Below are positions 19,468-38,800 of a DNA stretch of 64,000 nt, in pieces; positions within the stretch are counted from its first letter, which is position 1, and every line of letters starts with the position of its first letter. Under the pieces are notes generated by a model, which did not search any database, was not told the origin of the DNA, and saw only the letters and a program-made list of their open reading frames with translations. The DNA is from a virus. The DNA lies in IMG/VR virus record IMGVR_UViG_3300046820_000975, positions 47,925-111,924 of that record, one strand, 5' to 3'. The position numbers and the translations under genes are program-made.

Positions 19468-22400
19468 TGAGTGACGAATTACAAAACGCTGGCACCAATA
19501 AGACCAATACCTTTACAGAAGGTATGGTCAAAGATACTGCTGATATTTATTTATCAGACAAAGTATGGACACATGCTGTCAATGCTATCAACAATACGCA
19601 TGTTGGTGAGACAGGTACATTAAGTAATGAATCAGCTAACTTTAAAACTGAAGAAGCTCCTTATACAATTATTGGTGCTGTTCATAAAACAGATACAGAA
19701 TGGATATTGTTTTCAACAAATGATATGGATTCTGAGATTGGTATTTATGATGAGCGTACAAGCACTTATACTCAAGTTGTAAATGATAGGTGTTTGGGAT
19801 TCAAACGTTCAAATATTATTACTGGTGTTTGTAAAGAAAACTACGATTGTACACGTTCTGTATATTGGCAAGATGGATTAAATCCTGATAGAGTTTTAAA
19901 TTTAAGTAGAGTACCTTATAAAATAATTGGAGATAGTGATCCATCTGAATGTGTGACTCCTATTTATTCTGATGAACTTGATTGTGATGCTTTACGTTTA
20001 CATCCATTAGTTGATCAACCATGTGTTACTATAAGAAAAGGAACTGGTGCTGGACAATTAAATAATGGTAGTTATATAGCTGTTGTTGCATATTCTGAGA
20101 ATGGTGTAAGATTAACAGATTATTCTGCACCAAGTCAACCACAAGCTTTGTGGGAACATGTTGGTATTGGAGGATCTTTGGATGTTAAAATAACAAACTT
20201 AGATACAAATTTTCATGAATTTGAATTAGTAATTGTTGCTGTAATTAATCAACAAACAATTGCTAAACGTATTGGTTATTACAGTATTGACCAATCAGAA
20301 ATACATTTAGATATTTTTGGTCAAGACTTACCAACTGTTGATTTAGCTCAAATTCCACTTAAGCATATTGTATATGAAAAGAGTGATAAGATATTTGAGT
20401 TAGGTGGGTACATGATTCGTACAGGTGTAACAACACAACCACAATTCAATTATCAACCTTTAGCAAATAATATACGCGTTAATTGGCATAGTGTAGAATA
20501 TCCAAAAGATTACTACTGGCATGGTGGAAATATCACTGGTTACATGCGTGATGAAGTTTATTCATTCTTTATACGCTGGGTGTATAATACTGGTGCAAGA
20601 AGTGCATCATACCATATTCCTGGAAGACCTAAAAACGCAAATGATTCTATTGCAGTAGGATCAACACCAGATAAAATTTCAGCAAATGAAACAGAACGTT
20701 GGCAAGTATACGATACCTCAACAGCTGGACTGGCTACAAATACCATTACCAAAGATGGTGGTCTTATTGTAGATGGAGGTCAAATGGGGTATTGGGAGAG
20801 TACAGAAAGATATCCAAATGATAAACCAGAAATCTGGGGTTCATTGTGTGGAGAACCAATACGTCATCACAAAATGCCATCAAATGAAACAACTCACATT
20901 CATAAAGGTAATAACATTTATATCCTTGGTGTTGAGTTTGTTAACATACAGCATCCATTAGATGAGAATGCAAATCCAATAAAAGATATTGTTGGGTATG
21001 AAATTTTGCGTGGTTCACGTGAAGGAAATAGAACTATTGTAGCCAAAGGTGTTTTCAATAACATTGTTCAGTATGACATGAATGGTAATCCACCAGCTGG
21101 TATGAAAGGATGTCATCAAAACTATCCATACAATGATTTGAGACCAGATAAATTCTTGACTCAAAACTATGCTTCTTTAGATGAAGGTACATCTGACTAT
21201 GGTAGAATTAATGGAGAATCTGATATTGATATATTTAAAGATTATCTTTTTAGTTTTCATTCTCCTGAAACAAACTTTGTACGTCCATACTTAGGTGGTA
21301 ATCATGTTAAAATTTATAGAGAAGAACGTGGTTATTCAGTTGGTGCATTTGAAGTACCATACAAACATCCAAAGAACAAGTTTATAACTAACGCTGTATT
21401 TGGTATGTCTGCATTAGTGTCTGTAGGTATTGCAGCATTAAATGCGGTTGGTAGTTCTACTACATCTGGTGGCCAATATATAGCTGCAGCACCTTATGGA
21501 GCTGGTACTGTACTTACTTCAGAAGGTTCTCGTCAGTCTGGTATTGCATCTTCTATTCCTGATTTAGTAAACGCCAGTTTTTTACAATCGCTAGGTATTT
21601 CATCTGCGGGTGGTACATTTGCTACAGCTGCTGCAGTAGCTACTGTTGTATTATCTTCTACCTATTATTTAGGTCAAGCAATGGATCTTGTATTAGATAT
21701 CTTTTACAAGATGATTCCACATCGTGATTATATGTTACAGTATAATTCACACGCACATTACGATTCATCTGCAGCACTTTCAAATTCTGCAGTTCCAAGC
21801 GGTATTAAACCTATGTATCGTAGAAACATACCATCTGGTTTAGCTAAGTATATTGGTTCTGGTGTTCAAGATTTTAGTCCAACTTACAGAGTTAACAATG
21901 TTAATCGTAACAAATTTGTTATGGTTCAAACTGCAAGCTCAATTCCAACACCAGCATTTTCAGATACCACAAGACAACGTCTAAGTGATGTTAGAGCAAC
22001 TAACAAACCATTTGAAAATTTTAGTCAACCTACATCTACTTATTATGGTGCAATAAAAGTTGATTTTCAAAATCAATATGGTCAGTTAACAAGCATTGTA
22101 CAATTACCAACTGACAGTTGTGTATTGGCTACTACACCAAATGGATTAATGCGTTTTAGATCAGGTGTTATATTTGGTGGAGATGTATACATAAATCGCT
22201 ATACAGAAAAGAATCCTTATTACTTCTTCAATAGTTGGTTGCAAGGTGAACCAAATGGTACAGAGTTTAATTATCGTAACTATGTTAATGGTCCAGCACC
22301 AAGATACTGGATAGATACTAATAAGTATGATATTACTGACTTAAACATAACATTACAGAACTGGCATTTAAACTTTGTCACTCCTTCTGACTTCCATAGA

Positions 22401-24119
22401 TTAGATAACAAAGATGCATTTAGAGGTGTATTTAGTGTGCGTAACTCTTATGCTTATTTGTTTTATAATGGTGTACGTGACTTCTATACAGAAAGTGAAT
22501 TAAACTTAGCGTATAGAGATTATGGTGAACCTGATACAGAAAAGTTTTATGATGTTTATGGAGGATCATTTGCTGATCTTTCTACAATGTTTAGATCTGA
22601 CAAAATTACATCTGCAATACAATATAAATATGATTTATCACTTTCATCCAGCAAGTTATTCTCTAACTTTGCATCTTGGGGATCAATCTTACCACGTGAC
22701 TACGACCCTGAAATCTACAGCACATGTTTTGAGTATTACCCTAAACGAGCAATCTACTCTTTACAACATCAGTCAGGGTTAAAGCGTGATAACTGGAGAA
22801 ACTATTTACCACTCAACTACAAAGATTTCAGTGGTAAAATTTCCACAATCAAAGCCTTAAATGCTCAAGGTGCTATTATATTATTTGAAGATGCAGAACC
22901 AGTACAATTTGCTGGTGTTGACCAACTTCAAACTAAATCTGGTACTAAGTTTACAATTGGTGATGGTGGATTGTTCCAGCAAAATATGCAAAGTATTGTA
23001 AATGCTGATGATTCGTTAGAGTATGGCTCATGTACCTCATCAAGATCTGCAGTAAATACACCATTTGGTTTATTCTACATATCTCAAAAACTAGGTAAGA
23101 TCATGCACTACACTGGTGGTGGATTGGATGAAATTTCACGTAATGGTCTTAAGTACTGGTTTACAAACCACTTACCAAGTAAGTTGTTACAAGCTGCAGG
23201 TGATTATAAATTGTATGACAATCCAGTATTTGGTATTGGTTGTCAAGCAATGTATGACCAACAATTTGAATTAGTATACTTTACTAAGAAGGATTACATA
23301 CCATTACGCGATGATTTGTATTACAACGATCCTACAGGTATTCCTTATTACATGGTGGAAGGAATTAAAAACTATGTTCAATTCTCTAATAAAGAATTCT
23401 TTAAACCTTGTAGTTGGACAGTAAGTTATGATCCAAAATCTAAAGCTTGGGTTAGTTTTCACTCATGGGTTCCTGATTTATTTATACCAGCGTATAGTCA
23501 TTTCTTTACAACAAAAGACAATGGTATTTGGAAACACAATAGTATGTGGAACAAATACTGTGAATATTATGGTGTACAGTATCCTTGGGAAGTTGAATTA
23601 CCAGTAATAACACCTGGTGCAATAACAACTCTCAGAAGTGTAGAATATTGGATGGATGCATATAAATACACAAATGCTGGCCAAGATTATAAACATATTT
23701 TAGATTATAATTTTGACACTGCAATTATTCATAATTCTGAGCAAATATCTGGAATTTTAAAGTTAAATTTGAAATCTAAAAATAACCCAGGTCAACAGAT
23801 ACAATATCCATTGGTAGGGTTATATGGGACTGATATCTTAGTAAGTAAAGAAGAGAATAAATATCGCTTCAATACATTCTGGGATGTTACAAATAATAGA
23901 GGAGAGTTTAACTATAATGAGACACCAATGTGGATTACTAGCTGCAATGGTTACCAACGTACGATAAATCCTTCGTATATTAATTATAACAAGTCACCTT
24001 TTGAACGTAAAAAGTTTAGACATTATGGTAATAGAATTGTATTACGCAAAAATGGTGTGATGGATGTTAAAATGATACTTAAATTACATACAACTAAACT
24101 TCTTCAAAGTCCACGATAA
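19467..24119 (+). CDS. Giant tail muzzle / stabilisation-type protein
   Basis: The frame is open from 19395, but ATG 19467 overlaps the zincin stop by one base (TAATG) and is the likely start, giving 1550 residues. The N-terminal 350 residues have repeated beta strands with conserved Trp/Asn/Asp (for example SDKVWTHAVNAINN, then IGAVHKTDTEWILFSTND), as in the beta-propeller-like start of crAss-like stabilisation or muzzle proteins. These close the tail end. Two hydrophobic Ala/Gly/Ser-rich stretches (about residues 645-670 and 710-735) could be membrane-active or buried hinges. The rest is aromatic-rich beta structure. It comes directly after the connector genes, as expected for a distal tail protein. 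Identity is by length, plan and synteny. Confidence 0.65.
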   Translation: MSDELQNAGTNKTNTFTEGMVKDTADIYLSDKVWTHAVNAINNTHVGETGTLSNESANFKTEEAPYTIIGAVHKTDTEWILFSTNDMDSEIGIYDERTSTYTQVVNDRCLGFKRSNIITGVCKENYDCTRSVYWQDGLNPDRVLNLSRVPYKIIGDSDPSECVTPIYSDELDCDALRLHPLVDQPCVTIRKGTGAGQLNNGSYIAVVAYSENGVRLTDYSAPSQPQALWEHVGIGGSLDVKITNLDTNFHEFELVIVAVINQQTIAKRIGYYSIDQSEIHLDIFGQDLPTVDLAQIPLKHIVYEKSDKIFELGGYMIRTGVTTQPQFNYQPLANNIRVNWHSVEYPKDYYWHGGNITGYMRDEVYSFFIRWVYNTGARSASYHIPGRPKNANDSIAVGSTPDKISANETERWQVYDTSTAGLATNTITKDGGLIVDGGQMGYWESTERYPNDKPEIWGSLCGEPIRHHKMPSNETTHIHKGNNIYILGVEFVNIQHPLDENANPIKDIVGYEILRGSREGNRTIVAKGVFNNIVQYDMNGNPPAGMKGCHQNYPYNDLRPDKFLTQNYASLDEGTSDYGRINGESDIDIFKDYLFSFHSPETNFVRPYLGGNHVKIYREERGYSVGAFEVPYKHPKNKFITNAVFGMSALVSVGIAALNAVGSSTTSGGQYIAAAPYGAGTVLTSEGSRQSGIASSIPDLVNASFLQSLGISSAGGTFATAAAVATVVLSSTYYLGQAMDLVLDIFYKMIPHRDYMLQYNSHAHYDSSAALSNSAVPSGIKPMYRRNIPSGLAKYIGSGVQDFSPTYRVNNVNRNKFVMVQTASSIPTPAFSDTTRQRLSDVRATNKPFENFSQPTSTYYGAIKVDFQNQYGQLTSIVQLPTDSCVLATTPNGLMRFRSGVIFGGDVYINRYTEKNPYYFFNSWLQGEPNGTEFNYRNYVNGPAPRYWIDTNKYDITDLNITLQNWHLNFVTPSDFHRLDNKDAFRGVFSVRNSYAYLFYNGVRDFYTESELNLAYRDYGEPDTEKFYDVYGGSFADLSTMFRSDKITSAIQYKYDLSLSSSKLFSNFASWGSILPRDYDPEIYSTCFEYYPKRAIYSLQHQSGLKRDNWRNYLPLNYKDFSGKISTIKALNAQGAIILFEDAEPVQFAGVDQLQTKSGTKFTIGDGGLFQQNMQSIVNADDSLEYGSCTSSRSAVNTPFGLFYISQKLGKIMHYTGGGLDEISRNGLKYWFTNHLPSKLLQAAGDYKLYDNPVFGIGCQAMYDQQFELVYFTKKDYIPLRDDLYYNDPTGIPYYMVEGIKNYVQFSNKEFFKPCSWTVSYDPKSKAWVSFHSWVPDLFIPAYSHFFTTKDNGIWKHNSMWNKYCEYYGVQYPWEVELPVITPGAITTLRSVEYWMDAYKYTNAGQDYKHILDYNFDTAIIHNSEQISGILKLNLKSKNNPGQQIQYPLVGLYGTDILVSKEENKYRFNTFWDVTNNRGEFNYNETPMWITSCNGYQRTINPSYINYNKSPFERKKFRHYGNRIVLRKNGVMDVKMILKLHTTKLLQSPR

Positions 24120-26425
24120 TGGCACAAAATAGAGATATACTACTGAATTTTATCTTGTCTCAACGTCAGAGAATTGAGCCAGATCCTGCAAGACAAATGT
24201 TCCAGGTGGCTGGTACATCTGTGCGTCCAACAACAGCTAACAACATGATGCAGAGTGCTGTTGCAAACGTAGCTAAACAAAAACAAGCTCAAGCTCAAGC
24301 ACAAGCTCAGGCTGCAGCTGCGCAAGCAGCACATGAAGCTGAATTGGAAAGATTGCGTACTCAGTATGGTCAACAAGCAGCATCACGTATGACATCTGCT
24401 CAAGTAGCTCAAGCTAACAGAATGAGTCAACAAGCTGCTGCTGCACCACAAGCAACTGTAGCGCAAACTCAAACTCCTACAACAGTACAACAAATTCAAA
24501 ATTTTGCTACTCACCCATTGCAATCAATGACAGGTCGTGAGAATAATTTTGATATGTTGGCAGGTATTCCAGGTTATATAGCAACGGTAGCAGCTCCAAA
24601 TACTGCATACAATTTAACAGTTGGATTGCCTGATACTGCAGCAGATATTGCCAATGCAACAATTGGTGCTTCAGGAGAACTTTTAACTGGGCAACCTATT
24701 TCGCCAGAAACAAAACTTGCTGCATATAATACAGCTAATCGTTTATTAGATGCATCAGCAGTTTTACCTGTTGGTAAAGCTATTCAACCTGTAATGAAAG
24801 TATTTGGTCCTACAATGGAAGAAGTTGCAATGGCAGGAAAACATATATTACATTCAGGTGTAGGTCAAGTTGCAGAACAAGCTGCACACAAAGCTGCACA
24901 TAAGGCTGTTCACCATCAAGTTGAACATTTGGCTGACCATGGCGCAGATCAAAATGCCAATCAAACTCATCAATATACACAAAATATGAATAACTCATAT
25001 GAAAATCCATCACATGCTTATGGTGGTTTAATGAAATTTTTAGTAGGTGGAAGTAAAATTCATATTGATCCATCAAAGAAGGGAACGTTTACTGCTCAAG
25101 CTACTCGTATGAATATGGGTATCCAAGAAGCTGCTAGACATATTATGGCTAACAAAGAAGATTATTCACCTGAAATGGTTAAGAAAGCTGTGTTTGCACA
25201 TAACTTTGCAAAACAAATGGGTGGGTCATTAGAACAATATGGTTATGCAGGTGAAGTTTCTCCTAATGCACCTATTGATTTTAGTAACTATGTACCAGCT
25301 GCAAATAATACATATATAGATAGAAGTGGTGCAGGTCAACCTATGCAGATTGTTAATGGTGCACTTCAATATGTTCCACAACCACAAATCAAACCTGCTG
25401 CTACTCCTACAGTTAATGGTAGACAAATTACAGGATATACATATGATGGTACACCATTGTATAAACATGACATGGGTGGATTAGCTAAGTTTATAGCAAT
25501 GTATCCATTGCAAAAATTTGATATTGGTGGATATACTCCTGATGAACCAGGATTTGCTCCAAACATGTTTCCTGCAAGAACAACAAGATCAGTACATACA
25601 GATCCTGAAGTAGCTGCTCAAGCAGCTCGTCAACGTGTACAACAAACTACAGTACATGAACCAGCTAATGTTAATTGGTATGTTCCACAAGAAGGACAAT
25701 ATCCTCAAGCACAAATAAGTCAAGCTGGTTATCCTCAAGCTGTATATGCTCCTACTCAAAGATTTGCTCCTATAGGTAACATGCCTGCAGAAGCAATGTC
25801 TGATCAAGCTCAAATGATGAAATGGCTTGCTGCAAATCCAGGAGTATCTGGATTTACTGCTGCTTATCCTAATGGAGCACCTGCTCCAACACCTGGTAGT
25901 GTTACATATCCTATTACTGGAGGTGAAGATAAAGTAACGCCTTATAATGGAGGTGATTTACCTACAGTTGTTAAATCTGCGGTGCGTCCTTCAAAAGCTG
26001 ATCCATTTGGTAATGGTTTAACAAAAGATGATGTTAAGAAAGTTCAACGTGAACTTATTGCTTCTGGTATTTTGGAACCATCGGGTAAGAAATTTGCTAA
26101 TGGAGAAGATCGCGAAGTTGACGGCATGTGGGGTCCTAAAACTCAAGCAGCGTATGAAAAGTATATTGCTAAAAAGAATTTAGAAAGTATGGAACTTATG
26201 CCTGAAAGATGGAATACTCCTTCCATGGAACAATATGTACCAGGGCAAATTCCAACACAAGCTCCAGCTGAACCATCACCAATGCCTCAACGTTATGCAG
26301 GTATGGATATTCAACCACGTCGTACTGGTAGTGCTTTAAAAACTGAAAAGCGTGGCAAAGATGAAAAAGCTTATGGTGGATACAGTGGATATGGATTTGC
26401 TAAATGGTTAGATCAATTTAAATAA
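24119..26425 (+). CDS. Virion cargo-type protein with peptidoglycan-binding domain
   Basis: This 768-residue protein starts one base inside the tail gene's stop. Residues 50-130 are a Gln/Ala-rich coiled coil. Around residues 140-260 is a hydrophobic Ala/Gly-rich region, then low-complexity linkers. Residues about 631-680 match a peptidoglycan-binding domain: VKKVQRELIASGIL, then VDGMWGPKTQAAYEKY. This domain usually directs cell-wall binding. Three YGGL/MGGL-type motifs occur (YGGLMKF near 301, MGGLAKF near 455, KAYGGYSGYGF at the C-terminus). It is probably carried in the virion and acts on or in the cell wall during DNA entry. No lytic catalytic motif is visible, so the partner enzyme, if any, is elsewhere. 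Confidence 0.6.
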   Translation: MAQNRDILLNFILSQRQRIEPDPARQMFQVAGTSVRPTTANNMMQSAVANVAKQKQAQAQAQAQAAAAQAAHEAELERLRTQYGQQAASRMTSAQVAQANRMSQQAAAAPQATVAQTQTPTTVQQIQNFATHPLQSMTGRENNFDMLAGIPGYIATVAAPNTAYNLTVGLPDTAADIANATIGASGELLTGQPISPETKLAAYNTANRLLDASAVLPVGKAIQPVMKVFGPTMEEVAMAGKHILHSGVGQVAEQAAHKAAHKAVHHQVEHLADHGADQNANQTHQYTQNMNNSYENPSHAYGGLMKFLVGGSKIHIDPSKKGTFTAQATRMNMGIQEAARHIMANKEDYSPEMVKKAVFAHNFAKQMGGSLEQYGYAGEVSPNAPIDFSNYVPAANNTYIDRSGAGQPMQIVNGALQYVPQPQIKPAATPTVNGRQITGYTYDGTPLYKHDMGGLAKFIAMYPLQKFDIGGYTPDEPGFAPNMFPARTTRSVHTDPEVAAQAARQRVQQTTVHEPANVNWYVPQEGQYPQAQISQAGYPQAVYAPTQRFAPIGNMPAEAMSDQAQMMKWLAANPGVSGFTAAYPNGAPAPTPGSVTYPITGGEDKVTPYNGGDLPTVVKSAVRPSKADPFGNGLTKDDVKKVQRELIASGILEPSGKKFANGEDREVDGMWGPKTQAAYEKYIAKKNLESMELMPERWNTPSMEQYVPGQIPTQAPAEPSPMPQRYAGMDIQPRRTGSALKTEKRGKDEKAYGGYSGYGFAKWLDQFK

Positions 26426-26431
26426 ACCAAT

Positions 26432-29290
26432 ATGATAGACAGTTTTTTAAGAATTGCGGGTGTAAAAAGTGAAGCTGAATTTTACAAAAAATACCCAACA
26501 CAGGAATCTTTTTTTGAAGATCATCCTGAAGCTATTGAATTGTCTAAACATGAAATAGGAGGACAGTTTAGAATTAGAGATACTGAAACAAACCCTATGA
26601 TGTTAAAGGCTGCTGAAGGATTTCAAATGCCTGGTTATACACCACAAGAAGGTGATAACATTTATACACAAACATCACAACATACTCTTGCTGATTTAAA
26701 AAACAGTGATTGGAACAAAGGTCTTGCTACTATTAACAGCTTGGGTAACTATAACAATATGTTAGGTCAGTTACCTGACAAAGGTTTATTTGGTAAAATT
26801 AAAGCTGGCGCTGGTATTGCTGCTGGTGCTTCAGGTGCCATATTAGGATATGAAAAAATGTTCAATCCTAATAAAACAACTACAAACACTTTAGTTAATA
26901 CAAATACTGGTGAATTTGGTTCAGCTGAAGATGTTATTAAACAACGTGCTAAAACTGCTAAAGAAAAAGAAGTTAGTACTGCGTTAGGTGTACACCCTCC
27001 AATGGTTGCACAGAATAATGAATTTTCATTTCCTAATTTTGCACCTGGTACTCCTGAGTTTAATAACTTTGCAACAAATGGTTTTCAAGGTTTAGGAGCA
27101 AAAACATCTCCTACTAAACCTACAGTTGCTAGTGGTCCAACTAATACTGCTCCTGTTCAACCAACAACATCTACTGCACCAGGTTCAACCATGAAAGCTA
27201 CTGGTTCTGGTATGCAATCAATGTATAATCAAAATGAAATTGATCAACAGTTAGGTTTAACAACTAATCAGTATGGTGGATTAACCAAGTTTTTACCTGA
27301 TGAAGCATACACAGATGAATACCCAATGATGGCAAAAGGTGGGTATACTGTAACAAGAAGTCATGATCGTAAAGGTAAAACTCACAAAGTAACAGGACCT
27401 GATGGAACTGTTAAGTACTTTGGTGATTCTAAGTTAGGACAACATCCTAATGATCCTGCAAGAAAGAAAGCTTTTTATGCTAGACATAAACATAACTTAG
27501 AAAAAAATCCTTATTTCAGAGCATTTGCTAGAGCTACTTGGGAAGAAGGTGGTGAAGTTAATGAAATGAAACATGGTGGTGAAATGATACGTAGAGCAGA
27601 TGGTAGTTATTCACAAAGAGGATTATGGGATAATATTAGAGCCAATGCAGGTTCTGGTAAAAAGCCTAGCAAAGAGATGTTAGAACAAGAAGCAAAGATA
27701 AAAGCTGCTTATGGTGGATTAATGAGATTTGAAGAAGGAGGCGCAGGTAATACAAATCAACCTGTTACACAAACAAAACAAATATCAGGAACTACACAGG
27801 CTATACCTGGTCAACAAGCATCTTATAATGCAACTATTACTCCAGGTAATCAAAATACAGGAAATACTGTAAATGCTTTAAATACTTCTGCTACTGTTGG
27901 TAATAATAATTATTCAGTAACAGGTAATGCTAATGTTGCAAATGATAGATTAGCAGATTATGGTGTAAATGCAAATGTAAACAAAGGTAATTTTAGTGGA
28001 GGTGCTAGTTATAACACTACAACTCAACCAGGAAGTCCAGATAAATATACTGCAAATGCTGCTTATAATTCTCCATCAGGTTTAAACATAAATGGTTCTC
28101 TCAATGGAACAACTGCTACTGGTGTCAATGATGTAAATCTTGGAGCTTCTTACAATAAAAATAATGTACAAGCACAAGCACAATATACTAGAAATTTAAA
28201 TACACCTGGTGCTTATAATTATACAGGTTCTGTTGGATATGGTACACCTAAGATGAATATAACTGGTAATGTTAGTGGTAATAATAATGCACCAGTAAGT
28301 TCATATGGTGTAACAGCTGGATATTCACCAGCTCCTGGTGTAACAGCTACTGCAAATTATACACATAATGTAGGATCAAGTCCAGAACAACCAGCTAACT
28401 CTGCCAATGTTGGAATGCGTTATAATGTTCCAAGTTCTACACCAAGACAACAACCAAAAACATTTACAAATGCTGTACCTGCTCCTGATCCATTTTTGTC
28501 TTCAACACAACAACAAAAATTTGGAGGATTGATGAAATTTGTAAATGGTGGTGAACCTACGTTTAAACAATGGTTTGCAGAAAATGCAGGCAGACCTGAT
28601 GTAATGAGTAATGTTGGTAATTACCAAGCATTGCAACGTATGTTTTTAGATGAGAACCCTATGGCTCAAACAGCTCAGGGTGCATATGGTCCAACAAACA
28701 ATGGGATGTTCAGTAATGAACCTGCGCAATCAGCATTATCTGCACCAATGCAATCACAATATACTGGTAGAAATGCAGGTACACGTTCTGGTATGGCGTC
28801 TGTATATAATACTAATCAACAAACAGATTGGACAGATCCTGCAATAGCTGGTGCTAATACAGCAAATGTAGCACCAACAGCTAACCAATTAAAATTCCAA
28901 CAGTTTGCAAACAAGTCTATCAAACGTGGAGATGATTCAGGAACAATTGCTGCTAATAATGCATTGCAAGGTTTAGGTATGGCTAGCTCAGCTTTAGGTA
29001 CCATGGATAAAGAAGCAGAGTACAATAAAAGATTGCGTGAAATTGGTAATACAAATTTCTCTACACAACCTTCAAATCCAACAAATCCATTTGGTAATTA
29101 TACACTAAATGCTGGTCCTGCATCTAACTTTGGTTTAGTAGCAAACACTCCAATACAAGATATTGGTACTAGTGGAATTGCTGCAAAATATGGTGGATCT
29201 AAAATGTATAGAGAAGGTGGTACATATTTATTGTCACCTGAAGAAGTTCGTAACATTTTAGCTAATGGTGGTGAAGTAGAGTTCATATAA
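26432..29290 (+). CDS. Virion cargo-type protein with beta-barrel-like repeats
   Basis: This 952-residue protein begins 6 bases after its neighbour. Residues about 305-370 hold a compact basic module (KGKTHKVTGPDG, YFGDSKLGQH, then RKKAFYARH) resembling small phage/virus proteins of the DUF5754 kind. Residues about 485-670 are a Gly/Asn/Thr/Tyr-rich segment of alternating strands with short turns and long loops, patterned like an outer-membrane beta-barrel. YGGL-type motifs appear near residues 281, 428 and 697 and again close to the C-terminus (KYGGSKM). The C-terminal 25 residues are LSPEEVRNILANGGEVEFI-like. Probably a virion cargo or ejection protein. There is no signal peptide, so export by the normal route is unlikely. 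Confidence 0.55.
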   Translation: MIDSFLRIAGVKSEAEFYKKYPTQESFFEDHPEAIELSKHEIGGQFRIRDTETNPMMLKAAEGFQMPGYTPQEGDNIYTQTSQHTLADLKNSDWNKGLATINSLGNYNNMLGQLPDKGLFGKIKAGAGIAAGASGAILGYEKMFNPNKTTTNTLVNTNTGEFGSAEDVIKQRAKTAKEKEVSTALGVHPPMVAQNNEFSFPNFAPGTPEFNNFATNGFQGLGAKTSPTKPTVASGPTNTAPVQPTTSTAPGSTMKATGSGMQSMYNQNEIDQQLGLTTNQYGGLTKFLPDEAYTDEYPMMAKGGYTVTRSHDRKGKTHKVTGPDGTVKYFGDSKLGQHPNDPARKKAFYARHKHNLEKNPYFRAFARATWEEGGEVNEMKHGGEMIRRADGSYSQRGLWDNIRANAGSGKKPSKEMLEQEAKIKAAYGGLMRFEEGGAGNTNQPVTQTKQISGTTQAIPGQQASYNATITPGNQNTGNTVNALNTSATVGNNNYSVTGNANVANDRLADYGVNANVNKGNFSGGASYNTTTQPGSPDKYTANAAYNSPSGLNINGSLNGTTATGVNDVNLGASYNKNNVQAQAQYTRNLNTPGAYNYTGSVGYGTPKMNITGNVSGNNNAPVSSYGVTAGYSPAPGVTATANYTHNVGSSPEQPANSANVGMRYNVPSSTPRQQPKTFTNAVPAPDPFLSSTQQQKFGGLMKFVNGGEPTFKQWFAENAGRPDVMSNVGNYQALQRMFLDENPMAQTAQGAYGPTNNGMFSNEPAQSALSAPMQSQYTGRNAGTRSGMASVYNTNQQTDWTDPAIAGANTANVAPTANQLKFQQFANKSIKRGDDSGTIAANNALQGLGMASSALGTMDKEAEYNKRLREIGNTNFSTQPSNPTNPFGNYTLNAGPASNFGLVANTPIQDIGTSGIAAKYGGSKMYREGGTYLLSPEEVRNILANGGEVEFI
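27895..28440 (+). repeat. Beta-hairpin repeat segment inside the 952-residue protein
   Basis: Six irregular units of about 29-33 residues, each with an alternating-residue strand, a 3-4 residue turn (KGN, SPSG, KNN, TPK, PAPG), a second strand, and a longer loop rich in Pro/Asn/Gly/Thr. Strand ends are Tyr-rich (GASYN, NAAYN, AQYTRN, VGYG, ANYTHN, MRYN). The short-turn/long-loop alternation is the topology of outer-membrane beta-barrels, giving roughly 12 strands. No conserved C-terminal Phe signature is present. Confidence 0.45.
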
Positions 29291-29383
29291 GAAACTGCAC
29301 TTAATTTAGGAAAAGTCTAACTAATTTTGTACTTTTAAATGTAAGAGGTTTAGTGTGAGTTTCCTTTAAACTTCAAAAGTTTA
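29291..29383 (+). promoter_or_regulatory. Leader with long-range and start-codon inverted repeats
   Basis: This 92-bp gap is the longest within the giant-gene block. GAAACT-G-CACT (29291-29301) can pair with AGTG-TG-AGTTTC (29352-29363), ten pairs closing a large loop. TAACTAATTTTGTA within it contains TAATTTTG (29322-29329), a match to the Bacteroidota downstream promoter box, but no TTTG lies 19-21 bases upstream. TAAACTT (29367-29373) and AAGTTTA (29377-29383) form a perfect 7-bp repeat ending on the A of the start ATG, which resembles the inverse of the 18-bp box at 4295 and 9868. Confidence 0.4.
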
Positions 29384-32300
29384 TGCAAAGAATACGTATT
29401 AAAAAAGCTCCAAATAAAGGAGACCAACGCGACTACAGTCTTTATGACAGAACTAGTTTAAATCCAGGTGCACCAGATAATACTGAGCACATAGGAACTA
29501 CTATGGGTCCAGTAGATCGCGAAGATGCCAATGTAGAAGTTGAAAGAGGTGAAGTTGTTATTGGTGATACAAACCAAGATGGTTTTTTAGAACTATTTAC
29601 GTTCACTGGTAAACCTCACAGTAAAGGAGGTACTCCAGTTAATATACCACCAGGTTCATTTATTTATTCTAATACACGTAAACTGCGTATTAAAGATGCA
29701 GAATTATTGAAAAGTCAGTTTGGACTTTCAATGAAGAAAGGTGGATGGACTCCTGCTGAAATTGCAAATAAATTTCAAATTAATGAGTATGTATCTGATT
29801 TAAAAAATCCAGATACAGATAACCTTACAAAGCGTTCTTCAGACAGAATGCTTAAAAACAATTTGCAGAAGTTAGGTATTCTTGCGTTGATTCAAGAATC
29901 AATGAAAGGATTCCCTGATGGTATTCCTGCAATTGCTGAACCTGTTATGCAAGAGATGGGCGTAGATCCATCTATTATTACTGGACAACAACCACAAGAA
30001 CAAGCTCCGCAATTACAAGAAGCTCCTGAACAAGAAGTACAAGAGCAACCACAAGAAGCACCAGCTGAAGAATCTGGAGAAGGCATGCCATCTTTAGAAG
30101 AGTTTCAAGCTATGCAAGAACAAGGTATGCAAAAGTATGGTGGATTAACACAATATGCTGGTGGTGGGATGACAGTTCAGCAAGCGCAAGCTTTAAGTAA
30201 GAATTTGATTGCTAAATATCAAGATGCTTATAAAAGAAAAGATTATGCTGCATTAGCAACATTAGCACCACAGTTAAGACAAGCATCAAATCAGATTAAT
30301 CAATTTAATGATGCTGGTTGGTATTCATTAGGTATGATACCTGGAACAGATCAATCAGCATTTAATAGTTATACAAGTCAGTTAAGTCAAGCAGCAAATG
30401 ATATTGAAAGAAATATTATACCACAAAGTAATTTTGTTAGTACTATTGGTAATCAGCTTAAAACATTAACTGATCAATATCAAGCTGATTATAATAAGTT
30501 GAATTCAGGACAATTGACAAATTTGTCAACTGAAGATATGCAAAAGATAAAACAAATCTATGAGTTAAATAATAGATTTGCAGCTCATGCAGCTAATATT
30601 AAAGCTGGTGGTGCTGGTATGCCTGTATCTGAATTAGCTAGATTACAAAATCAGTTAGCAAAATATTCAGCTCCATCATCTACTGGTGATAATGGAATGT
30701 CTAGTACATTAGATAGCGCTGAAGTATTAAATGCAGAATCATCTGCACCAGCTTCTACAAATACATATACATCATCTCCATTTAAAAAAGGTGATGTTTA
30801 TAAATCTAAATGGGGTAGTTATGAGATTGTAAATCCAGCAGCTGATGCTGATGGAATGATTCAGCTTGTTAACAAACAAAATAATGCAAAGACTAAAGTT
30901 AAGTTAAGTACAATGCAACAAGCAATTGGTACTGGTTTAACTAAAGGTGGAGCTGATCTTATTAGTACTGCTCCTGCTGAAACTCCTGCACAACCACCAG
31001 CACAACCAAGAGTTGGTTCTACAACTACTCCAAGTCAAGGAACACAAACAACACCAGCAGCTTCATCTGGAAGATCATCACAAGGTCCTTCAAGTGCTAC
31101 TACTGGACCAATGTTCTCAGATGATATTTACAAGATGCGTTATGGTGGATATTTAAAACGATTTGATGGAGCTGGTACAAACAATGTTCCATTAAACACT
31201 AATGCTACTACACCTGCAACTGATGAAGAAAAGTTTGTTAGTGATGTTTCAGTTAATGGTCAAACGTATAAGAAATATAGCAAAGGTGATTTAGTAATTA
31301 TTAAAGATGCTAATGGTAGAACATTATCATCTAAGAATATTAAAACTGGTGAAAAGACAGACTACAGACCAGATGCAACAATTACATATAATGCTAAGAA
31401 TGAGCGTATTAACATTGATGCACCAGATCCATCTGTAGATTATAAAGCTAAAGATTGGAAAGGTAAATATTCAGCAAGCGCAGATGAGTTTGAAAAACTT
31501 ATAAATGATCCAGGAAATGAAGATTTGCGTAACTCTATTTATGAAGAGTTTAAAAAAATTGCACAAGATCATGCTGCAAGAACAGGAGATAAAAGCTTAT
31601 TAAACATTGATAAAGCTAATGCTATTCAAATGCTTATTAAAGGTAACAGAGATAATGCTACCATTAATAGTGTTTATGAAAAAAATCCTGAGTTATTAAA
31701 AAGTGGAGATTGGGATAAAACTCAACCTAATGATTACGTAGATGCAGCAGGTAATAAAGTAAGTGGTAAAAACCTTATTTATAATAGAGTTGCTAGCAAA
31801 CTTGGTATTACACCAATGGATGCTCTTGGAACTAAAGTTTTCCAAGGAATTTATCAAGCTTCTCAGAATGTTGCACGTCAACCACAATACGTTGAGAAAT
31901 TTACTAAAAGTGGATTTGACATTACACCAATTGGTCTTAGTGATCAAACACGTTTAAATCAACCAATTTCTCCTGTAGATGAAATCTATGGTAACACTAC
32001 TGTAGGTCAAATGTACAAGTTAAAACAAGATCCAGAAATACCAATTACTGTTCCTCCAGGAAAGAAAGTAAAATACTATTGCGTTAAACAAGCAAATGGT
32101 ATGGGTAATGTGGTATCTGTCACTTATAATGAAGGTGAACAACCTATTGCACCTGCAGGCGCAGGAGCAGGATTTGATGACAGATCTACTGCTGCTATGA
32201 ATTGTTCACAAGAACAACCTGGATTAGAGCAAGCACCAGTTAAATCTGGCCCATGGTGGTTACCTGATATTGTTAACTATACTGGTACATTAACAGATAA

Positions 32301-33087
32301 GATTAACAGATACGAACCTACGTTAGAGCAATTAAGCTCACGTACTCCAGGATATGTTTTATTAGATCCAACACGTCAATTGGCTGCTAACCAAAGTCAA
32401 ATGCAACAATACAACGACATGCTTTCAAATACGATGGCAGGTAATGTTGCAGCAGCTACTGCGTTAGGTGCTTCTGGTGAAGGATTTAATAATGCTGCTA
32501 ATGTATTAGCATCTGTTGAGGGACAAAACGTTGGTATTGTTAATAATGTTGCGGCAAGTAATGCGCAGATTCAAAATCAACAAGATATGTTGAATGCGCA
32601 AGCACGTCAGAATTATGTTGGTCAAATGGCAACATTAAATCAAAATCTTGACAATGCTGAGCAACAACGTAAGTGGAGACAAATAGCTGCATTTAACAAT
32701 GGTACTAATAACTGGTATCGTAAAAAACAAATGGAGCAAGTATTATTCCCTCAAGTATTTATCAATCCAATCTCTGGTGATGCAGAATTTTCTGGCAAAG
32801 GTAGAGATTATGCAGGATATGATGTATATTCGCCCGCGTATGCATCTAACACAAAAGCTAATACTTTTGATGTTCAAGGTACATATAACAAATATATCAA
32901 GGCTGGTAATACAGATGCACAAGCTAAATGGTTAACAGAAAAAGAACTTGAGTTAAATAAAACTTCAAGTTCTGGTTCAGATGCTAGTTCAAGACAAGCA
33001 TATATGAATGCTATTATGAACCAATCAGCTGGTCAAGCAATTGAGCGTTGGGGCGGTGCAATTACACCTTGGGATTTTGACGTTTAA
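29383..33087 (+). CDS. Large virion cargo-type protein, unknown function
   Basis: This 1234-residue protein starts with a basic tail (MQRIRIKKAPNKGDQRDY). A conserved-looking segment follows, about residues 75-135 (HSKGGTPVNIPPGSFIYSN, then KKGGWTPAEIANKF), of a type seen in minor structural proteins of Bacteroidota phages. Then come a Glu/Gln/Pro-rich stretch (about residues 200-240), helical regions, and linkers rich in Ser/Thr/Pro (near residues 530-580). The C-terminal 250 residues include a long Gln/Asn/Ala helix (about 990-1100). YGGL-type motifs are at about residues 251 (KYGGLTQY) and 586 (RYGGYLKRF), and WGGAITPW is at the C-terminus. No enzyme motif is seen. Injection with the genome is an inference from the surrounding block. 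Confidence 0.55.
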   Translation: MQRIRIKKAPNKGDQRDYSLYDRTSLNPGAPDNTEHIGTTMGPVDREDANVEVERGEVVIGDTNQDGFLELFTFTGKPHSKGGTPVNIPPGSFIYSNTRKLRIKDAELLKSQFGLSMKKGGWTPAEIANKFQINEYVSDLKNPDTDNLTKRSSDRMLKNNLQKLGILALIQESMKGFPDGIPAIAEPVMQEMGVDPSIITGQQPQEQAPQLQEAPEQEVQEQPQEAPAEESGEGMPSLEEFQAMQEQGMQKYGGLTQYAGGGMTVQQAQALSKNLIAKYQDAYKRKDYAALATLAPQLRQASNQINQFNDAGWYSLGMIPGTDQSAFNSYTSQLSQAANDIERNIIPQSNFVSTIGNQLKTLTDQYQADYNKLNSGQLTNLSTEDMQKIKQIYELNNRFAAHAANIKAGGAGMPVSELARLQNQLAKYSAPSSTGDNGMSSTLDSAEVLNAESSAPASTNTYTSSPFKKGDVYKSKWGSYEIVNPAADADGMIQLVNKQNNAKTKVKLSTMQQAIGTGLTKGGADLISTAPAETPAQPPAQPRVGSTTTPSQGTQTTPAASSGRSSQGPSSATTGPMFSDDIYKMRYGGYLKRFDGAGTNNVPLNTNATTPATDEEKFVSDVSVNGQTYKKYSKGDLVIIKDANGRTLSSKNIKTGEKTDYRPDATITYNAKNERINIDAPDPSVDYKAKDWKGKYSASADEFEKLINDPGNEDLRNSIYEEFKKIAQDHAARTGDKSLLNIDKANAIQMLIKGNRDNATINSVYEKNPELLKSGDWDKTQPNDYVDAAGNKVSGKNLIYNRVASKLGITPMDALGTKVFQGIYQASQNVARQPQYVEKFTKSGFDITPIGLSDQTRLNQPISPVDEIYGNTTVGQMYKLKQDPEIPITVPPGKKVKYYCVKQANGMGNVVSVTYNEGEQPIAPAGAGAGFDDRSTAAMNCSQEQPGLEQAPVKSGPWWLPDIVNYTGTLTDKINRYEPTLEQLSSRTPGYVLLDPTRQLAANQSQMQQYNDMLSNTMAGNVAAATALGASGEGFNNAANVLASVEGQNVGIVNNVAASNAQIQNQQDMLNAQARQNYVGQMATLNQNLDNAEQQRKWRQIAAFNNGTNNWYRKKQMEQVLFPQVFINPISGDAEFSGKGRDYAGYDVYSPAYASNTKANTFDVQGTYNKYIKAGNTDAQAKWLTEKELELNKTSSSGSDASSRQAYMNAIMNQSAGQAIERWGGAITPWDFDV

Positions 33088-33102: not shown

Positions 33103-35787
33103 ATGGCTACGTTTACTAATCAAACAGACCAGTTTGGTCCATTGCAACTTTATAAACCTGATTACAGTTTTCTGACTCAGGTTTATGGAACACGTCAGGC
33201 TGAATATGATCGTGGTTTTAACACAGTTAAAAGTTTATATAATTCAGCACTTAACAGTCCTGTCACTAGTGAAGCTAATGAAGCTTTTCGTCAAGAAGCT
33301 TTTAAGAAAATTCAAAACTCACTTAAATCAGTTAGTGGAGTTGACTTATCAAATCCAACTAACATAACACGCGCACAAAACTTACTAAATCCGATTACAG
33401 ATGATGAAGAGTTAATGCGTGATATGTCAGTTACACGTTATAACGCAGATCAAGAACAACGCTTAAATGCTGTTAAAAATAGTTCAGATCCTGAAATACG
33501 TAAACAATACAATGAGTATAGCGCAAAAGCTATTCAATTATCTAAAGAAGATTTACGTACAGCAAAACGTGGTACTGGTGAAGTATCTAAAGTTAGACCA
33601 GGTGAGTTTATTCCACAAGAAGATATTGCTGAATACTTAAACAAAGCAGCAAAGGAACAAGGTATTAAAATTGCTTTTTCTGAAGCTGATGGTAAAGGTT
33701 ACATTATCAATACAGAAAATGGTACACGTGCTTACGGTGCGTTTACCAACTGGGCAAAAACTATGATGGGTAATCGCTTTGACCGTCAATTACAACAAAG
33801 AGGTTATGTAGAAAGTGAGAATATTATACGTAACACAATGGCAGAAAACAAAGTAGGACGTGATGTAGCTACACAAATGGTTTCTGACAAGTTATCAAAA
33901 GAACTTACTACACAATCTGCTACTGATGGAGTTGAAGCTGACAAGCAACTTAAAGAGTTGAATGACAACATCAATCTTTATAAAAAAGAATACCCTAATG
34001 GTGTACCTGAAACTAAACTAGCAGATTTTAAAAAGCTGGTTACACAACGTGATGAATACAAAAAACAATTAGAAGAAGCACGTACAGTAAACTACAATGT
34101 ACAAAATGATGGGGCAGCTTACGTTGCTGCAAACATTGCAGGTATTTTTACTAAAGAAGCTAAGAACTCAATTGCACATAACTGGGCAAAGACAAGAGCT
34201 GATGCAACTGCAAAGACTGAATTGAAAGATGATCAGGTTGTTTTAACTAAATGGAAAATAGCGTCTGATGAGCGTCAAACCTCTATGCGTATTGCATCTT
34301 CTGAGAAAATTGCACAAATGCATGAAGCTGGTACGCAAGCACGTTGGGAAAAAGATCATGAACTTAAAGTTGCTAAACTTAAAGCAGAAAACAAATTACC
34401 TAACGAAGATCGTATTGGTACATTTGCTACTACATCAGATACAAAAGGTGTTGACATATTAGGTCAAGCTAATAAAGAAACACAAGAAAGAATGTTTAAT
34501 ACAGTATTTTCAGCTGGTGATGGTATTGTAAACCAAGTACTTGATACTAAATATCAAGGTCAGCTTTACTCTGTTATGGCAAAAGTTAAGCAGATTGAAT
34601 CTGGCAATGATGTTAAATTAACAGCAGAAGAAAAGAATCTGATTGCTCAAGTTGGTAAGCAACTTAATGTTACTGTATATAACCCAACTAACTCAGCTAC
34701 AGCTCGTGCAGTAATTGATAACATTACTACTGGTATGGTTACTAAAGCACAAGGACGTATTAAGCAATACGCTAGTATGGGTAAAAGTAGCAAAGCTGGT
34801 CAATTAGCTACTGCTCTTAATGGTGTAATATCTGATATGCATACGTTAAATGAACAATATGATAATCAGAAAAGCAACTACAAAAAAGTAGCAGCTATTG
34901 TTACAGATGGTTCAGGTCATATTAAATCTGGATTTGAAGGAGCTAAGATAACTGGATACTTTAAAGATGGTACACCTATCATTGATGTAACTGGCATGTC
35001 TGTTGAAAAACGTGACTTTGTTAGTAAACAAGTTGATGATCAATACAATACACGTGCTGGTCAAGCAGGAGCAATTTATCAATTTAATGCACTTGATGCA
35101 AAAGATGTATTTGCTATTACTAACAGTAATGGTATGGTATCTGCTAAAGATCAAAATGGTAATGATGTGGATATGAGTACTTTACGTTCATTACCTGCAG
35201 ATCAATTAAAAGAAATGCTAGGTAAAACTGCACAGGTAGCTTATGATCCAGGTAACAAGAATGTAGTAGTAAAACTTAAGGTTGATCCTTCATCAGGTAT
35301 TGCTAAAACATTAAAACTTGATCGTACATCTGTTATTGATGTAACAATTCCTTATAAAGCTATTCAAGCTAATCCAGATGACTATGGACGTTTAGGTATG
35401 TACATAAACAAAAACACAGCTAATGTTACTTCATATAATAACAATTTTGCTAAATTTGTAAGTGAACCTACTGCTACAATTACTGCGCCATCTACGTATA
35501 CAAATGCGGGATTTGACTATTCTATATCTGGAACAAGAAACAGTAATGGTCAGTATGGTTTAAATATTAACTACGAATATACAAACCCTTCAACAGGTAA
35601 AACTGAAAGACACCATTCATTTAAGCCAATCAACAATCCTGGAGATCCTGCAGAATTTCTTGCTGCTCAAAGTATGATTACCAGTGTATTTGATTCTTAT
35701 ACATTGAATAGACAACAGTATGAAGATCAAGTAAATGGTAACGTAAGTACTTATGAATATTCAGATGATGATTTTGACTTAGATTAA
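33103..35787 (+). CDS. Helical virion cargo-type protein, unknown function
   Basis: This 894-residue protein starts 15 bases after the previous gene. Its N-terminus (about residues 8-45, FGPLQLYKPDYSFLTQVYGT then YDRGFNTVKSLYN) is a pattern I associate with large virion proteins of Bacteroidota phages. The middle is highly helical and charged, with likely coiled coils near residues 285-330 and 395-435. Residues about 600-790 are more beta-rich (KITGYFKDGTPIIDVTG), and the C-terminus is acidic (DDDFDLD). No catalytic motif or hydrophobic segment is visible. Length and place suggest one of the proteins ejected with the genome. The YGGL motif of the three preceding genes is absent. Confidence 0.55.
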   Translation: MATFTNQTDQFGPLQLYKPDYSFLTQVYGTRQAEYDRGFNTVKSLYNSALNSPVTSEANEAFRQEAFKKIQNSLKSVSGVDLSNPTNITRAQNLLNPITDDEELMRDMSVTRYNADQEQRLNAVKNSSDPEIRKQYNEYSAKAIQLSKEDLRTAKRGTGEVSKVRPGEFIPQEDIAEYLNKAAKEQGIKIAFSEADGKGYIINTENGTRAYGAFTNWAKTMMGNRFDRQLQQRGYVESENIIRNTMAENKVGRDVATQMVSDKLSKELTTQSATDGVEADKQLKELNDNINLYKKEYPNGVPETKLADFKKLVTQRDEYKKQLEEARTVNYNVQNDGAAYVAANIAGIFTKEAKNSIAHNWAKTRADATAKTELKDDQVVLTKWKIASDERQTSMRIASSEKIAQMHEAGTQARWEKDHELKVAKLKAENKLPNEDRIGTFATTSDTKGVDILGQANKETQERMFNTVFSAGDGIVNQVLDTKYQGQLYSVMAKVKQIESGNDVKLTAEEKNLIAQVGKQLNVTVYNPTNSATARAVIDNITTGMVTKAQGRIKQYASMGKSSKAGQLATALNGVISDMHTLNEQYDNQKSNYKKVAAIVTDGSGHIKSGFEGAKITGYFKDGTPIIDVTGMSVEKRDFVSKQVDDQYNTRAGQAGAIYQFNALDAKDVFAITNSNGMVSAKDQNGNDVDMSTLRSLPADQLKEMLGKTAQVAYDPGNKNVVVKLKVDPSSGIAKTLKLDRTSVIDVTIPYKAIQANPDDYGRLGMYINKNTANVTSYNNNFAKFVSEPTATITAPSTYTNAGFDYSISGTRNSNGQYGLNINYEYTNPSTGKTERHHSFKPINNPGDPAEFLAAQSMITSVFDSYTLNRQQYEDQVNGNVSTYEYSDDDFDLD

Positions 35788-35800
35788 ACTTAACAAAACA

Positions 35801-38800
35801 ATGGCTGATCAACTAGAACCATTAAGCATACAAGATGCAATAAAACAGGCTACAGCTCCAGCAGGTGCTCAACCTAAAACTAATGATTTTGCATCTTCAA
35901 TGAATGATGTATTCAATGATGCTAATGCAAAATTTACTGTACCAGAAGATGTACCTACTTCACCATTGCGTGCGGGTGGTCCTGGTGTACAATTTTATAA
36001 TGCAGATGATGCAGCCAAATATCAACTTCAATCAGATTTTGATGCGTGGGGTTTTAATCCAAACAATCCAGCAAACTATGATCGCATGGTTGCAAAAGAG
36101 GATTGGGGTTCAGCTATTAGTAAAGGTTGGGATGGTTTAAAAACAAACTTTGGAAATACATACGTTGGTAACTTTACTGGTTATGGACGTATGGTTGATG
36201 CTATTGCTCATCTAGATATGTCTAGACTTATGGATGATGAAAGCACCATGATTGATCAGGCATATGCACAAAAACAAATGGGTAACAAAAATTTTGTTTT
36301 TGTTAAACCAGAAGAAGAAGATGACATCTTTGGAAAAAAGTTTGTTGCTGAAAGTATGCAAAGTGCTGGATTTAGCCTCGGTACTGTTGCTGCATTTGGA
36401 ACTGAATTATTAGCAGATGCGTTAATTACAGCTGCAACTGCAGGTGGAGGTATTGAAACATTTGGCGCATCTATAGCTAAATTTGGTGCTAGACTTGGAA
36501 TGGAGACAGCTGGTAAAGCTATCGGTAAAGGTGTTAGTGCTGTTGGTAAAGTAGCTAAAGGATTTACAGAAGTTGAAAGTTTAGGCAAAGGTGCATTAAA
36601 TGCTGCAGATAAAGGACTTGATGTTGCAGGTAAATTAAAAGGTGCATTGACTAGTCCTACAATTAGAAAGGAAGTAATTAATGATACATTTGAAGCCATG
36701 ACTAAAACAATGGCACAACTTTCTAATCCTAGCAAAATTGGAGAATGGAGTATGAAAGCTCTTGAAAAAACTCCATTATTAGGTACTGGTGTAAAGTTTG
36801 GTAAAACCATTCGTGCTGCTGCAAAAGGAGGAGCAGGCGCTTCTGAATTAATTGGTATGGGTCTTGGTGCTACAAGACGCGTAATGCAAGAATATAACAT
36901 GGCTTCTACTGAAGCTAACATGGAAGCTGTATCATCTTATTCAGATACTCTGGATGATATGGTAAGACAATATAAAGCATCTAATGGTGGTGACACACCT
37001 TCAGAACTTGAATTTGCATCTATGAGAAATGATGCAATGAAATCTGCTGGTGCTAACTATAAGACAAACATGTCTGTTTTATTAGCAATGAACTCACTTC
37101 AATTTGGTAACGTGTTGAATAAGTATGGTTCTGCCAATAAGTTTATACGTGACTTTATGATGGAAGGTGCAGAAGATGTACTTGCTGTTGAAGGTAAACG
37201 TATATTAAAACAAGGTGCAAAAGAAGTAGTTAAAGAAGGAGTTGAACAAGCTGGTAAACAAGCAGCAAAAGAAGGTGTTAAAGAAGCTGTTGAGCAAGGT
37301 GTAAAACAATCATTTACAAAGTTATATGAAAAAGGTGCTTTAGGTACATTAGGTCTTGTGGGACAAATCTCAAGAGACTTTGGTAAGAAGGAAGCAGCAT
37401 ATCAATTAGGTAGATCTTTTGTAAGAAACTTTGCAAAGTTTGAAGCATTAGAAGGTTTGCAAGAAAATATACAAGAAGCTTCAGGTAAAGCATGGCGCGA
37501 TTATTATGCAGCAAAACATGACACAGCTGTTAAAACTATTTATGATACATTCTCTGATGCTATAGGTGATCAAATGAGCAAGCAAGGTTTTAGAACTTTC
37601 TTGTCAGGTGCACTTGGTGGTGTGTTGTCACATGGTCCATCAATGATAATAAACAAAACAATTGCTAAAGCTGCTGAAGGTGCTAATTCATTAAATTACA
37701 GAAATGATCCTTCTCAGAATCCAGCAACACAAGCTCAAAAAGCATTGAAAGAAAACATTGCAAATCTTAATGCAATGTTTGAACAAACTTCAAGTAGTAC
37801 TATTGATAAGTCATTATTTAACTTTGCCAACCAGATTCATGCTGGTAAAGAAATGACACAGGCTGCTGCTAAAAATCAGCAGTATGAGTTTACCAATGGT
37901 AGAGATAATGCTTTATTGTCTGCTGTAATTTCAGCTAAACAAACTGGTACAGTTGATGTTCTTGCACGTTCATTCCGTGAGATGGGTAATAATATGACTG
38001 CTGAACAATTTGAAAACAACTTTGGTATAAGCCTTAGTGATACAAAATATAATTCAGTTGAAGATTTTACTAATTCAATAGGAGATGATATTGAAAAATA
38101 TTCAGAATCAATTGATGATGTTAAACGTAATGTAGGTGATTTAGCTAATCCTAATCTATATAAAGTAGGTAGCAAAGAATATTATCTTGCAATACATAAA
38201 CGTAGAACGCAAGAAGAAGCTGTTAATATTATCTCTTACAATATGTTACGTGGAGAAATGACAGCTGAACGTGTTCAACAATTAGCACAAGAAGTAAGAG
38301 CTAATCCTGTATTGGCCCATTCTGCTGATTATGTAATGCGTGTATTACACAATGGTGAGAATTTAGATGCTGAAATTGGCAATGTTCAAAGTGAAGTTAC
38401 AATACTTAATGAACAACTTAAAGGTGAAGGATTAGATCCAAAACTTAAAGCTGATTTAGAAAAACAATTAGAACTCAAAAAAGAACATCTAGTTGATTTA
38501 AAAATATGGCAGAGTTACTTTGACAAATCAGCACGTAAAAGAACAGCTGGTAAAGAAAGCGCTGTTGAGTATACTAGTGGTAAATTTGTAGGTAAAGGTA
38601 AAAAGTCAACATTTGATGATCAGGGTAAACTTGTTCAAGAATTTGAACCTACATCAGAAGAACTAAATGATCCTGAAGTACTTGCAAGATTTAAAAAGCT
38701 ATTGGTTAATTTAAATAACCAAGCTGGTATTTCTGTACAAATGACTGATGCTCAAGCGCGTGAAGCATTATCAAAAGTTACTGATATTAGTCGCCTTAAC

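Follow-up and report, generated by a model that had tools for sequence, protein, structure and literature searches.

A recurrent aromatic-GG motif in the cargo-position proteins of a crAss-like phage resembles a docking tag more than a protease cut site

Introduction

Double-glycine leader and processing sites are recognized by a GG dipeptide behind hydrophobic residues, and the capsid targeting sequence (CTS) of bacteriophage T4 internal proteins is an N-terminal tag that is cleaved off. The CTS, a short conserved tag carried by diverse virion-bound proteins, leads these into the scaffolding core (PMC3012670), and the cargo loading peptides of encapsulins, about 10 residues long and placed at the N- or C-terminus of cargo encoded beside the container genes, have been seen by crystallography in a pocket of the shell (PMC7355545). 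The described protein closest to those reported here is gp45 (cargo protein 1, C1) of PhicrAss001, a single chain of 842 amino acids (aa; PDB 7QOG/7QOL/8CKB; PMC10172136). Here we analyze a recurrent aromatic-GG motif in three consecutive open reading frames (ORFs) of a 64,000-nucleotide stretch of viral DNA (hereafter the window), positions 47,925 to 111,924 of the 111,924 bp IMG/VR record IMGVR_UViG_3300046820_000975.

Of gp45, two stretches only could be assigned in the PhicrAss001 virion, residues 214-245 at the wall of the tail barrel (R1/R2) and 425-552 at the portal wing, and the authors join the segments in tail and capsid into a single chain (PMC10172136). Most of the PhicrAss001 cargo lacks clear density, an unassigned helical segment of 14 residues is present in six copies at the muzzle, and cargo proteins 1 and 2 have been proposed to form a channel (PMC10172136).

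Results

The initial annotation had pointed to eight strings of the type YGGL-x-KF, and all eight are present, each on the plus strand like the muzzle gene and the modules and tags of ORFs 1 to 3 described below. ORF 1 (24119-26425; 768 aa) holds YGGLMKFLVGG (25019-25051; aa 301-311) and MGGLAKF...LQKFDIGG (25472-25531; aa 452-471). ORF 2 (26432-29290; 952 aa) holds YGGLTKF (27272-27292; aa 281-287), YGGLMRFEEGG (27710-27742; aa 427-437), FGGLMKFVNGG (28520-28552; aa 697-707) and, around KYGGSKM, YGGSKMYREGG (29189-29221; aa 920-930), while ORF 3 (29383-33087; 1,234 aa) holds KYGGLTQY, as part of YGGLTQYAGGG (30136-30168; aa 252-262), and RYGGYLKRF, at YGGYLKRFDGAG (31141-31176; aa 587-598). 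Two further copies that had been missed lie near C-termini: ORF 1 ends in AYGGYSGYGFAKWLDQFK-COOH (from aa 752; the full copy, YGGYSGYGFAKWLDQFK-COOH, spans aa 752-768 at 26372-26422 and may be compared with the GGWLDKY-COOH ends of relatives described below), and ORF 3 carries RWGGAITPWDFDV-COOH (from aa 1223) within its terminal WGGAITPWDFDV-COOH (33049-33084), with YGGEFELPWEEI-COOH and YGGEMYLPWVELD-COOH at the equal place in relatives L017, L045 and L016. The second GG that had been described downstream of the first starts 7-8 residues on in five of the eight strings; in the remaining three it lies at 18 or 22 residues, or only GAG follows. The three proteins are consecutive as described, yet they are hardly giant: the true giants of the region (2,047, 4,442 and 1,992 aa) are encoded downstream and do not carry the motif.

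A strict pattern, [YFMW]GG[LYMFI]x(1-3)[FYW], occurs eight times in the three ORFs (2,954 aa) compared to zero times in all other ORFs of the record (32,629 aa). When each protein was shuffled 20,000 times the mean count was 0.116 and none of the 20,000 shuffles reached eight, although these shuffles preserve composition only and thus test residue order rather than glycine richness itself. Chance low complexity was rejected on these two grounds. As the pattern was defined after seeing the motif, its replication in other genomes is the stronger support. The GG of KGGTPVN (aa 82) was counted as part of the portal-like fold and kept separate from the motif. At the DNA level, the codon pair GGTGGA is used in 7 of 11 aromatic/Met-GG pairs compared to 22 of 90 other GG pairs in the window.

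This uncultured phage is crAss-like as judged by its proteins, since a profile search of the record's proteins identified a portal (phrog_6547, E 1.4e-89), a major head protein, ring protein 1 (CrAss_Ring_1, E 1.6e-11) and a muzzle protein (gp44-like; 19395-24119; phrog_37948, E 2.5e-64), the last also matching the annotated muzzle of csAssE-Sib by tblastn and serving as the anchor of the cargo block. ORFs 1 to 3 are flanked by this muzzle gene and by the giant ORFs, which occupy the place of the RNA polymerase (RNAP)-associated genes. Directly 3' of the muzzle gene and 5' of the RNAP-associated genes is also where gp45 and gp46 are encoded in PhicrAss001 and other Crassvirales. In addition to this position, ORF 3 aa 93-178 match gp45 481-546 in a profile comparison (E 3.4e-6, probability 88%), a region that falls in the portal-bound domain of gp45 (425-552), and ORF 1 has an IHIDPSKKGTF (IHI) module in common with gp45-like proteins; other crAss-like phages match ORF 1 aa 272-400 by tblastn. 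In some of the closest relatives (L045 and L017, with muzzle proteins about 60% identical) one protein contains regions of both ORF 1 and ORF 2, and for phi4:1 and phi14:2 the annotation of the proteins in this position states that tandem mass spectrometry detected them in virions. The motif-bearing proteins are probably packed and injected by the phage.

Other searches with the three ORFs gave little. PHROGs and Pfam returned no significant match for any of them, tblastn against phage records returned no match for ORFs 2 and 3, and single-protein scans of IMG/VR returned either a near-identical contig only or nothing. A Foldseek search of the ORF 3 model against the PDB gave no match at E <= 0.001, with gp45 absent among the matches listed, probably because this 640-aa multi-domain model has large disordered parts.

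In order to follow the motif beyond this genome, we scanned IMG/VR with a muzzle alignment and obtained 80 relatives with flanks. The density of GG per 1,000 aa was 10.2, 13.8 and 10.1 in the first three ORFs downstream of the muzzle gene, compared to 5.5 in upstream genes and 6.2 in the muzzle itself. The residues around the downstream GG are biased (M/Y/F/H at -3, Q/K/A/R at -2 and Y/H/M at -1), and this bias is much weaker at the GG of upstream genes. Three variants occur, [KR]YGGxxxKYxxGG, which is the type of the window, GGWLDKYxxGG and YGxxLPKAQxG, and we take them as one motif. Together they amount to 164 copies compared to 19.7 after shuffling, in 65 of 76 loci, and are about 20 times denser than in upstream genes.

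A separate scan for DNA encoding GGWLDKY found at least 120 stretches, of which 80 loci were retained; by a rough estimate that takes a uniform composition, chance would yield a few tens, mostly single and out of frame. Among the matches listed, GGWLDKY lies in frame within a long ORF in 73 of the 80 retained loci and a muzzle-like ORF is present in 54. Where the muzzle is clear, all listed copies are one to four genes 3' of its gene, with none at or upstream of it. The 27 GGWLDKY pairs listed within one ORF include none identical in DNA (on average 3.8 of 21 nucleotides differ), and recent copying of a repeat at the DNA level was rejected because the copies differ at synonymous sites. The exact-peptide scan forces peptide identity among copies, so the codon differences exclude recent DNA duplication and are not alone proof of selection.

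We next compared the copies with predicted folds, using AlphaFold2 (AF2) models and their predicted local distance difference test (pLDDT) scores. The mean pLDDT of the ORF 2 model is 49 (671 of 952 residues below 50), and so only its confident modules were used. Both ORF 3 copies lie in stretches of pLDDT below 50 (aa 252-262 and 587-594; the low-scoring stretches run over 244-262 and 559-612), the first of them between a confident portal-like domain (aa 41-205) and the next helical domain, and each of the ORF 2 copies at 281, 427, 697 and 920 is either disordered or borders a small folded module. In the relatives only 4 motif sites fall inside known modules where 40.9 would be expected, while a distance of at most 10 residues from a module edge is seen for 42 (expected 20.9). 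Chain ends are a second common place: 42 of 96 GGWLDKY copies listed end within four residues of the C-terminus, the rest being internal, several proteins of the same set begin with MNNWLDKYxxGG or MKGWLDKYxxGG, and related copies such as MNNWLDKYEQGG are found at the N-terminus. The motif is thus real, found solely in one to four genes that follow the muzzle gene, placed outside folded modules and recurrent in relatives; the earlier remark that it sits near linkers and C-termini is borne out, and burial within folded domains, which would have spoken against a functional site, is not the pattern seen.

Placement at module borders is also what a preferred inter-module linker would give, one whose flexible glycines and helix-capping aromatics serve module shuffling and chain threading without a specific partner. 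This is the main rival to a docking function, and we regard it as somewhat unlikely. Consistent with a linker, disorder is predicted around the copies, modules turn up in different ORFs and in a different order from relative to relative, and variants agree within single ORFs only (see below). A plain linker, however, would not require its WLDKY or LPKAQ core to be exact, and copies that close a chain or stand right behind the start codon are unexpected for it, as is the same peptide spelled with differing synonymous codons, although the exact-match scan selects for peptide identity.

The structure of gp45 offers a second view of the motif. When the assigned stretches are mapped onto the gp45 sequence, the first starts at F214, with which YGGPLEF ends, and the second at A425 of AFGGWLNTQGG. 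In cr128 and Dulem41, AYGGP(I/L)N is found just 5' of the IHI module, and crAss001 has AYGGPLEF at the aligned position. A motif copy at the start of both ordered, wall-bound segments of gp45 is suggestive, not proof.

The same structure bears on the proposal that GG is a processing site, cleaved at maturation or following ejection. The region encodes zincin-like HExxH sequences (19117-19467, 35801-41944 and 41969-55297) and the motifs lie in accessible linkers, both of which would suit a protease. However, gp45 was modelled unbroken through AFGGWLNTQGG and its segments bridged as one chain (PMC10172136), which shows this copy to be ordered and uncut; the second glycine is replaced in several relatives (KYGNELPKAQDG, KYGAELPKAQEG) and, as in YGNELPKAQ and YGAELPKAQ, GG is not invariant at the supposed cut position; a cut at GGWLDKY-COOH would leave about five residues to remove; and no protease family was found among ten further ORFs scanned. 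With a variable second glycine, tags at the very end of chains and an intact copy in gp45, cleavage, one of the functions suggested initially, is in our view very improbable. The three HExxH sequences are HELFH (19117-19467), HELIH (35801-41944) and HEAFH (41969-55297), and ORF 35801-41944 also has a weak Peptidase_M76 match.

A membrane-interacting element, the third function suggested, for a channel formed by the cargo across the cell envelope would be in keeping with the channel proposed for cargo 1 and 2 (PMC10172136) and with the weakly amphipathic character of the motif. The motif is, however, short, charged (K/R/D) and broken by glycines, and the predicted transmembrane helix of PhicrAss001 gp45 (136-158) is located elsewhere, which makes this reading highly unlikely.

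The remaining features of the three ORFs frame the copies. In ORF 1, YGGLMKFLVGG stands immediately before the IHI module (IHIDPSKKGTFTAQ...AHNFAKQ; 25049-25228), which is found in 36 proteins from 36 loci of the relative and reference set, and a looser copy, MGGSLEQY (25217-25240), directly follows that module. In ORF 2, YGGLTKF (pLDDT < 50) precedes module B (TVTRSHDRKGKTHK...ARATW; 27338-27547; mean pLDDT 68-94 per block) and module C (ADGSYSQRGLWDNIRAN...KIKA; 27581-27712). YGGLMRFEEGG sits at the C-end of module C, where the helix ends at aa 427 and pLDDT is below 50 from 429. FGGLMKFVNGG marks the N-edge of a small helical module in the AF2 model, with FGGLAQFDPGG and FGGLNKFVNGG in L018 and L021, and YGGSKMYREGG has YGGMKKYRQGG and YGGTSSYKEGG at the equal place in relatives. 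In ORF 3, YGGLTQYAGGG occupies the linker after the portal-binding-like domain (29503-29997; pLDDT mostly >94), and similar copies stand behind this domain in many relatives.

Module B (ORF 2 aa 303-372) is 64-80% identical to stretches in relatives whose muzzle is mostly about 36-60% identical, and the order of modules B and C is reversed in L056; on both counts the module seems to have been exchanged between phages. ORF 2 closes with a conserved C-terminal tag, GGTYLLSPEEVRNILANGGEVEFI-COOH (29216-29287), and a similar ending (GGEYxxSxxEI...GGEVEFLD) is found in many relatives. This second tag, approximately GG-E-Y-x-[LM]-[ST]-x-[ED]-E-I-xx-I-x-x-G-G-[ED]-[VI]-E-[FY]-[LI]-D-COOH, closes motif-bearing ORFs at the C-termini of many downstream ORFs in L016-L095. 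Outside the window, neighbouring ORFs at G000:C1:30521-33801 (-) carry a CobT-like VWA domain and a CbbQ/MoxR-like AAA ATPase.

Discussion

From its sequence and distribution, the motif is a short, repeated, apparently position-independent peptide, roughly [KR]-[YFMW]-GG-x(1-3)-[KRQ]-[YF]-xx-[GA]G, found where modules join and chains end in what look to be the gp45/C1-like cargo proteins of crAss-like phages. A docking tag seems a better description of it than a protease cut site, because only cargo-position genes encode it, its copies are placed outside folded modules and relatives often have them at N- or C-termini. Our tentative preference is for a docking peptide, present in repeated copies, by which a modular and partly disordered cargo chain would be tethered to the inner wall of the exit channel. 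The aromatic and hydrophobic side chains would dock into repeated sites on the lumen of the portal, tail barrel or muzzle and the glycines would act as hinges, so that the chain, loaded during assembly, could be kept extended along the channel and be pulled off site by site during ejection. The packaging tag for the head that was initially suggested is therefore the suggestion that fits best, if "head" is widened to the lumen of the portal and tail. A more specific and rather unlikely form of this proposal is a repeated docking code, in which several copies of the peptide per cargo chain fit equivalent pockets along the portal, the tail-barrel rings and the muzzle, cargo is stored pre-threaded, and the 14-residue helix at the PhicrAss001 muzzle is one such peptide.

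Several observations weigh against docking to the channel wall. Binding to the portal or tail barrel, loading and ordered release are steps that we infer. The coincidence with the ordered parts of gp45 concerns two segments in a protein with about 20 GG, and is only modestly surprising. The motif is absent from the RNAP-associated ORFs and from ORF 33103-35787, and so is not a universal cargo tag. Finally, pairs of copies share the same variant in 62 of 102 cases overall, which none of 5,000 shuffles matched, whereas between ORFs of one genome the count is 21 of 55 compared to 18.4 expected. As the excess is found within ORFs and not between ORFs of a genome, variant coherence appears restricted to single ORFs and does not favour one shared receptor. 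A genome-wide dialect of the motif matched to one receptor was rejected, the agreement between ORFs not being significant.

Instead of a wall, the partner could be the cargo itself, with the aromatic-GG repeats acting as self-association stickers, similar to FG repeats, that keep cargo chains attached to one another in their storage zones of the capsid and tail. Several copies per chain, an aromatic and glycine composition, a disordered context and the lack of clear density for most PhicrAss001 cargo (PMC10172136) would all agree with this, but the precise WLDKY and LPKAQ cores and the terminal placement suggest a defined partner, and we consider stickers quite improbable.

How does the docking peptide that we favour compare with the described systems? 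Like gp45, the window proteins follow the muzzle gene, include a match to the portal-bound domain (E 3.4e-6) and an IHI-like module, and gp45 too has several aromatic-GG copies, one of them at the start of its portal-bound segment; in gp45, however, these features are in one chain, while in the window two or three ORFs share them and the copies are more regular. The motif recalls the T4 CTS as a short conserved tag on diverse virion-bound proteins, yet it is repeated, mostly internal or C-terminal and shows no sign of cleavage, and because it lacks a defining feature of the CTS, the N-terminal position of a tag that a prohead protease removes, we do not class it as one. Encapsulin loading peptides are similar in length and in the position of cargo genes beside those of the container, and some copies of the motif are terminal as well, but the receptor of the window motif is inferred and other copies occur inside the chain. 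Double-glycine sites share the GG after hydrophobic residues, but the GG of the motif is not invariant, not N-terminal only and without evidence of cutting. By analogy the motif would work like the T4 CTS or the encapsulin peptides, and is assigned to neither.

While gp45-like cargo is already known, we found no description of the motif itself in the open literature that we searched, in which WLDKY with phage and LPKAQ with crAss are unmentioned; subscription papers were outside this search.

The motif occurs on differing modules, including histidine phosphatase and weak zincin-like domains. Among GGWLDKY cargo ORFs of relatives, L126:9329-13450 (-), L111:1845-6434 and L102:1260-4649 (-) have either a histidine phosphatase domain (E 7.7e-21) or weak matches of the Peptidase_M91/SprT-like kind. 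Since GGWLDKY ORFs hold such differing enzyme-like domains, crAss-like relatives may inject varied enzymes.

Little is understood about how tailed phages load and order their injected proteins, and the cargo of PhicrAss001 is mostly invisible in cryo-electron microscopy. As a short mark of cargo proteins throughout a large and abundant phage group, the motif points to residues for mutation and to a peptide for unassigned density, and it provides a sequence signature for cargo genes that ordinary homology searches miss.

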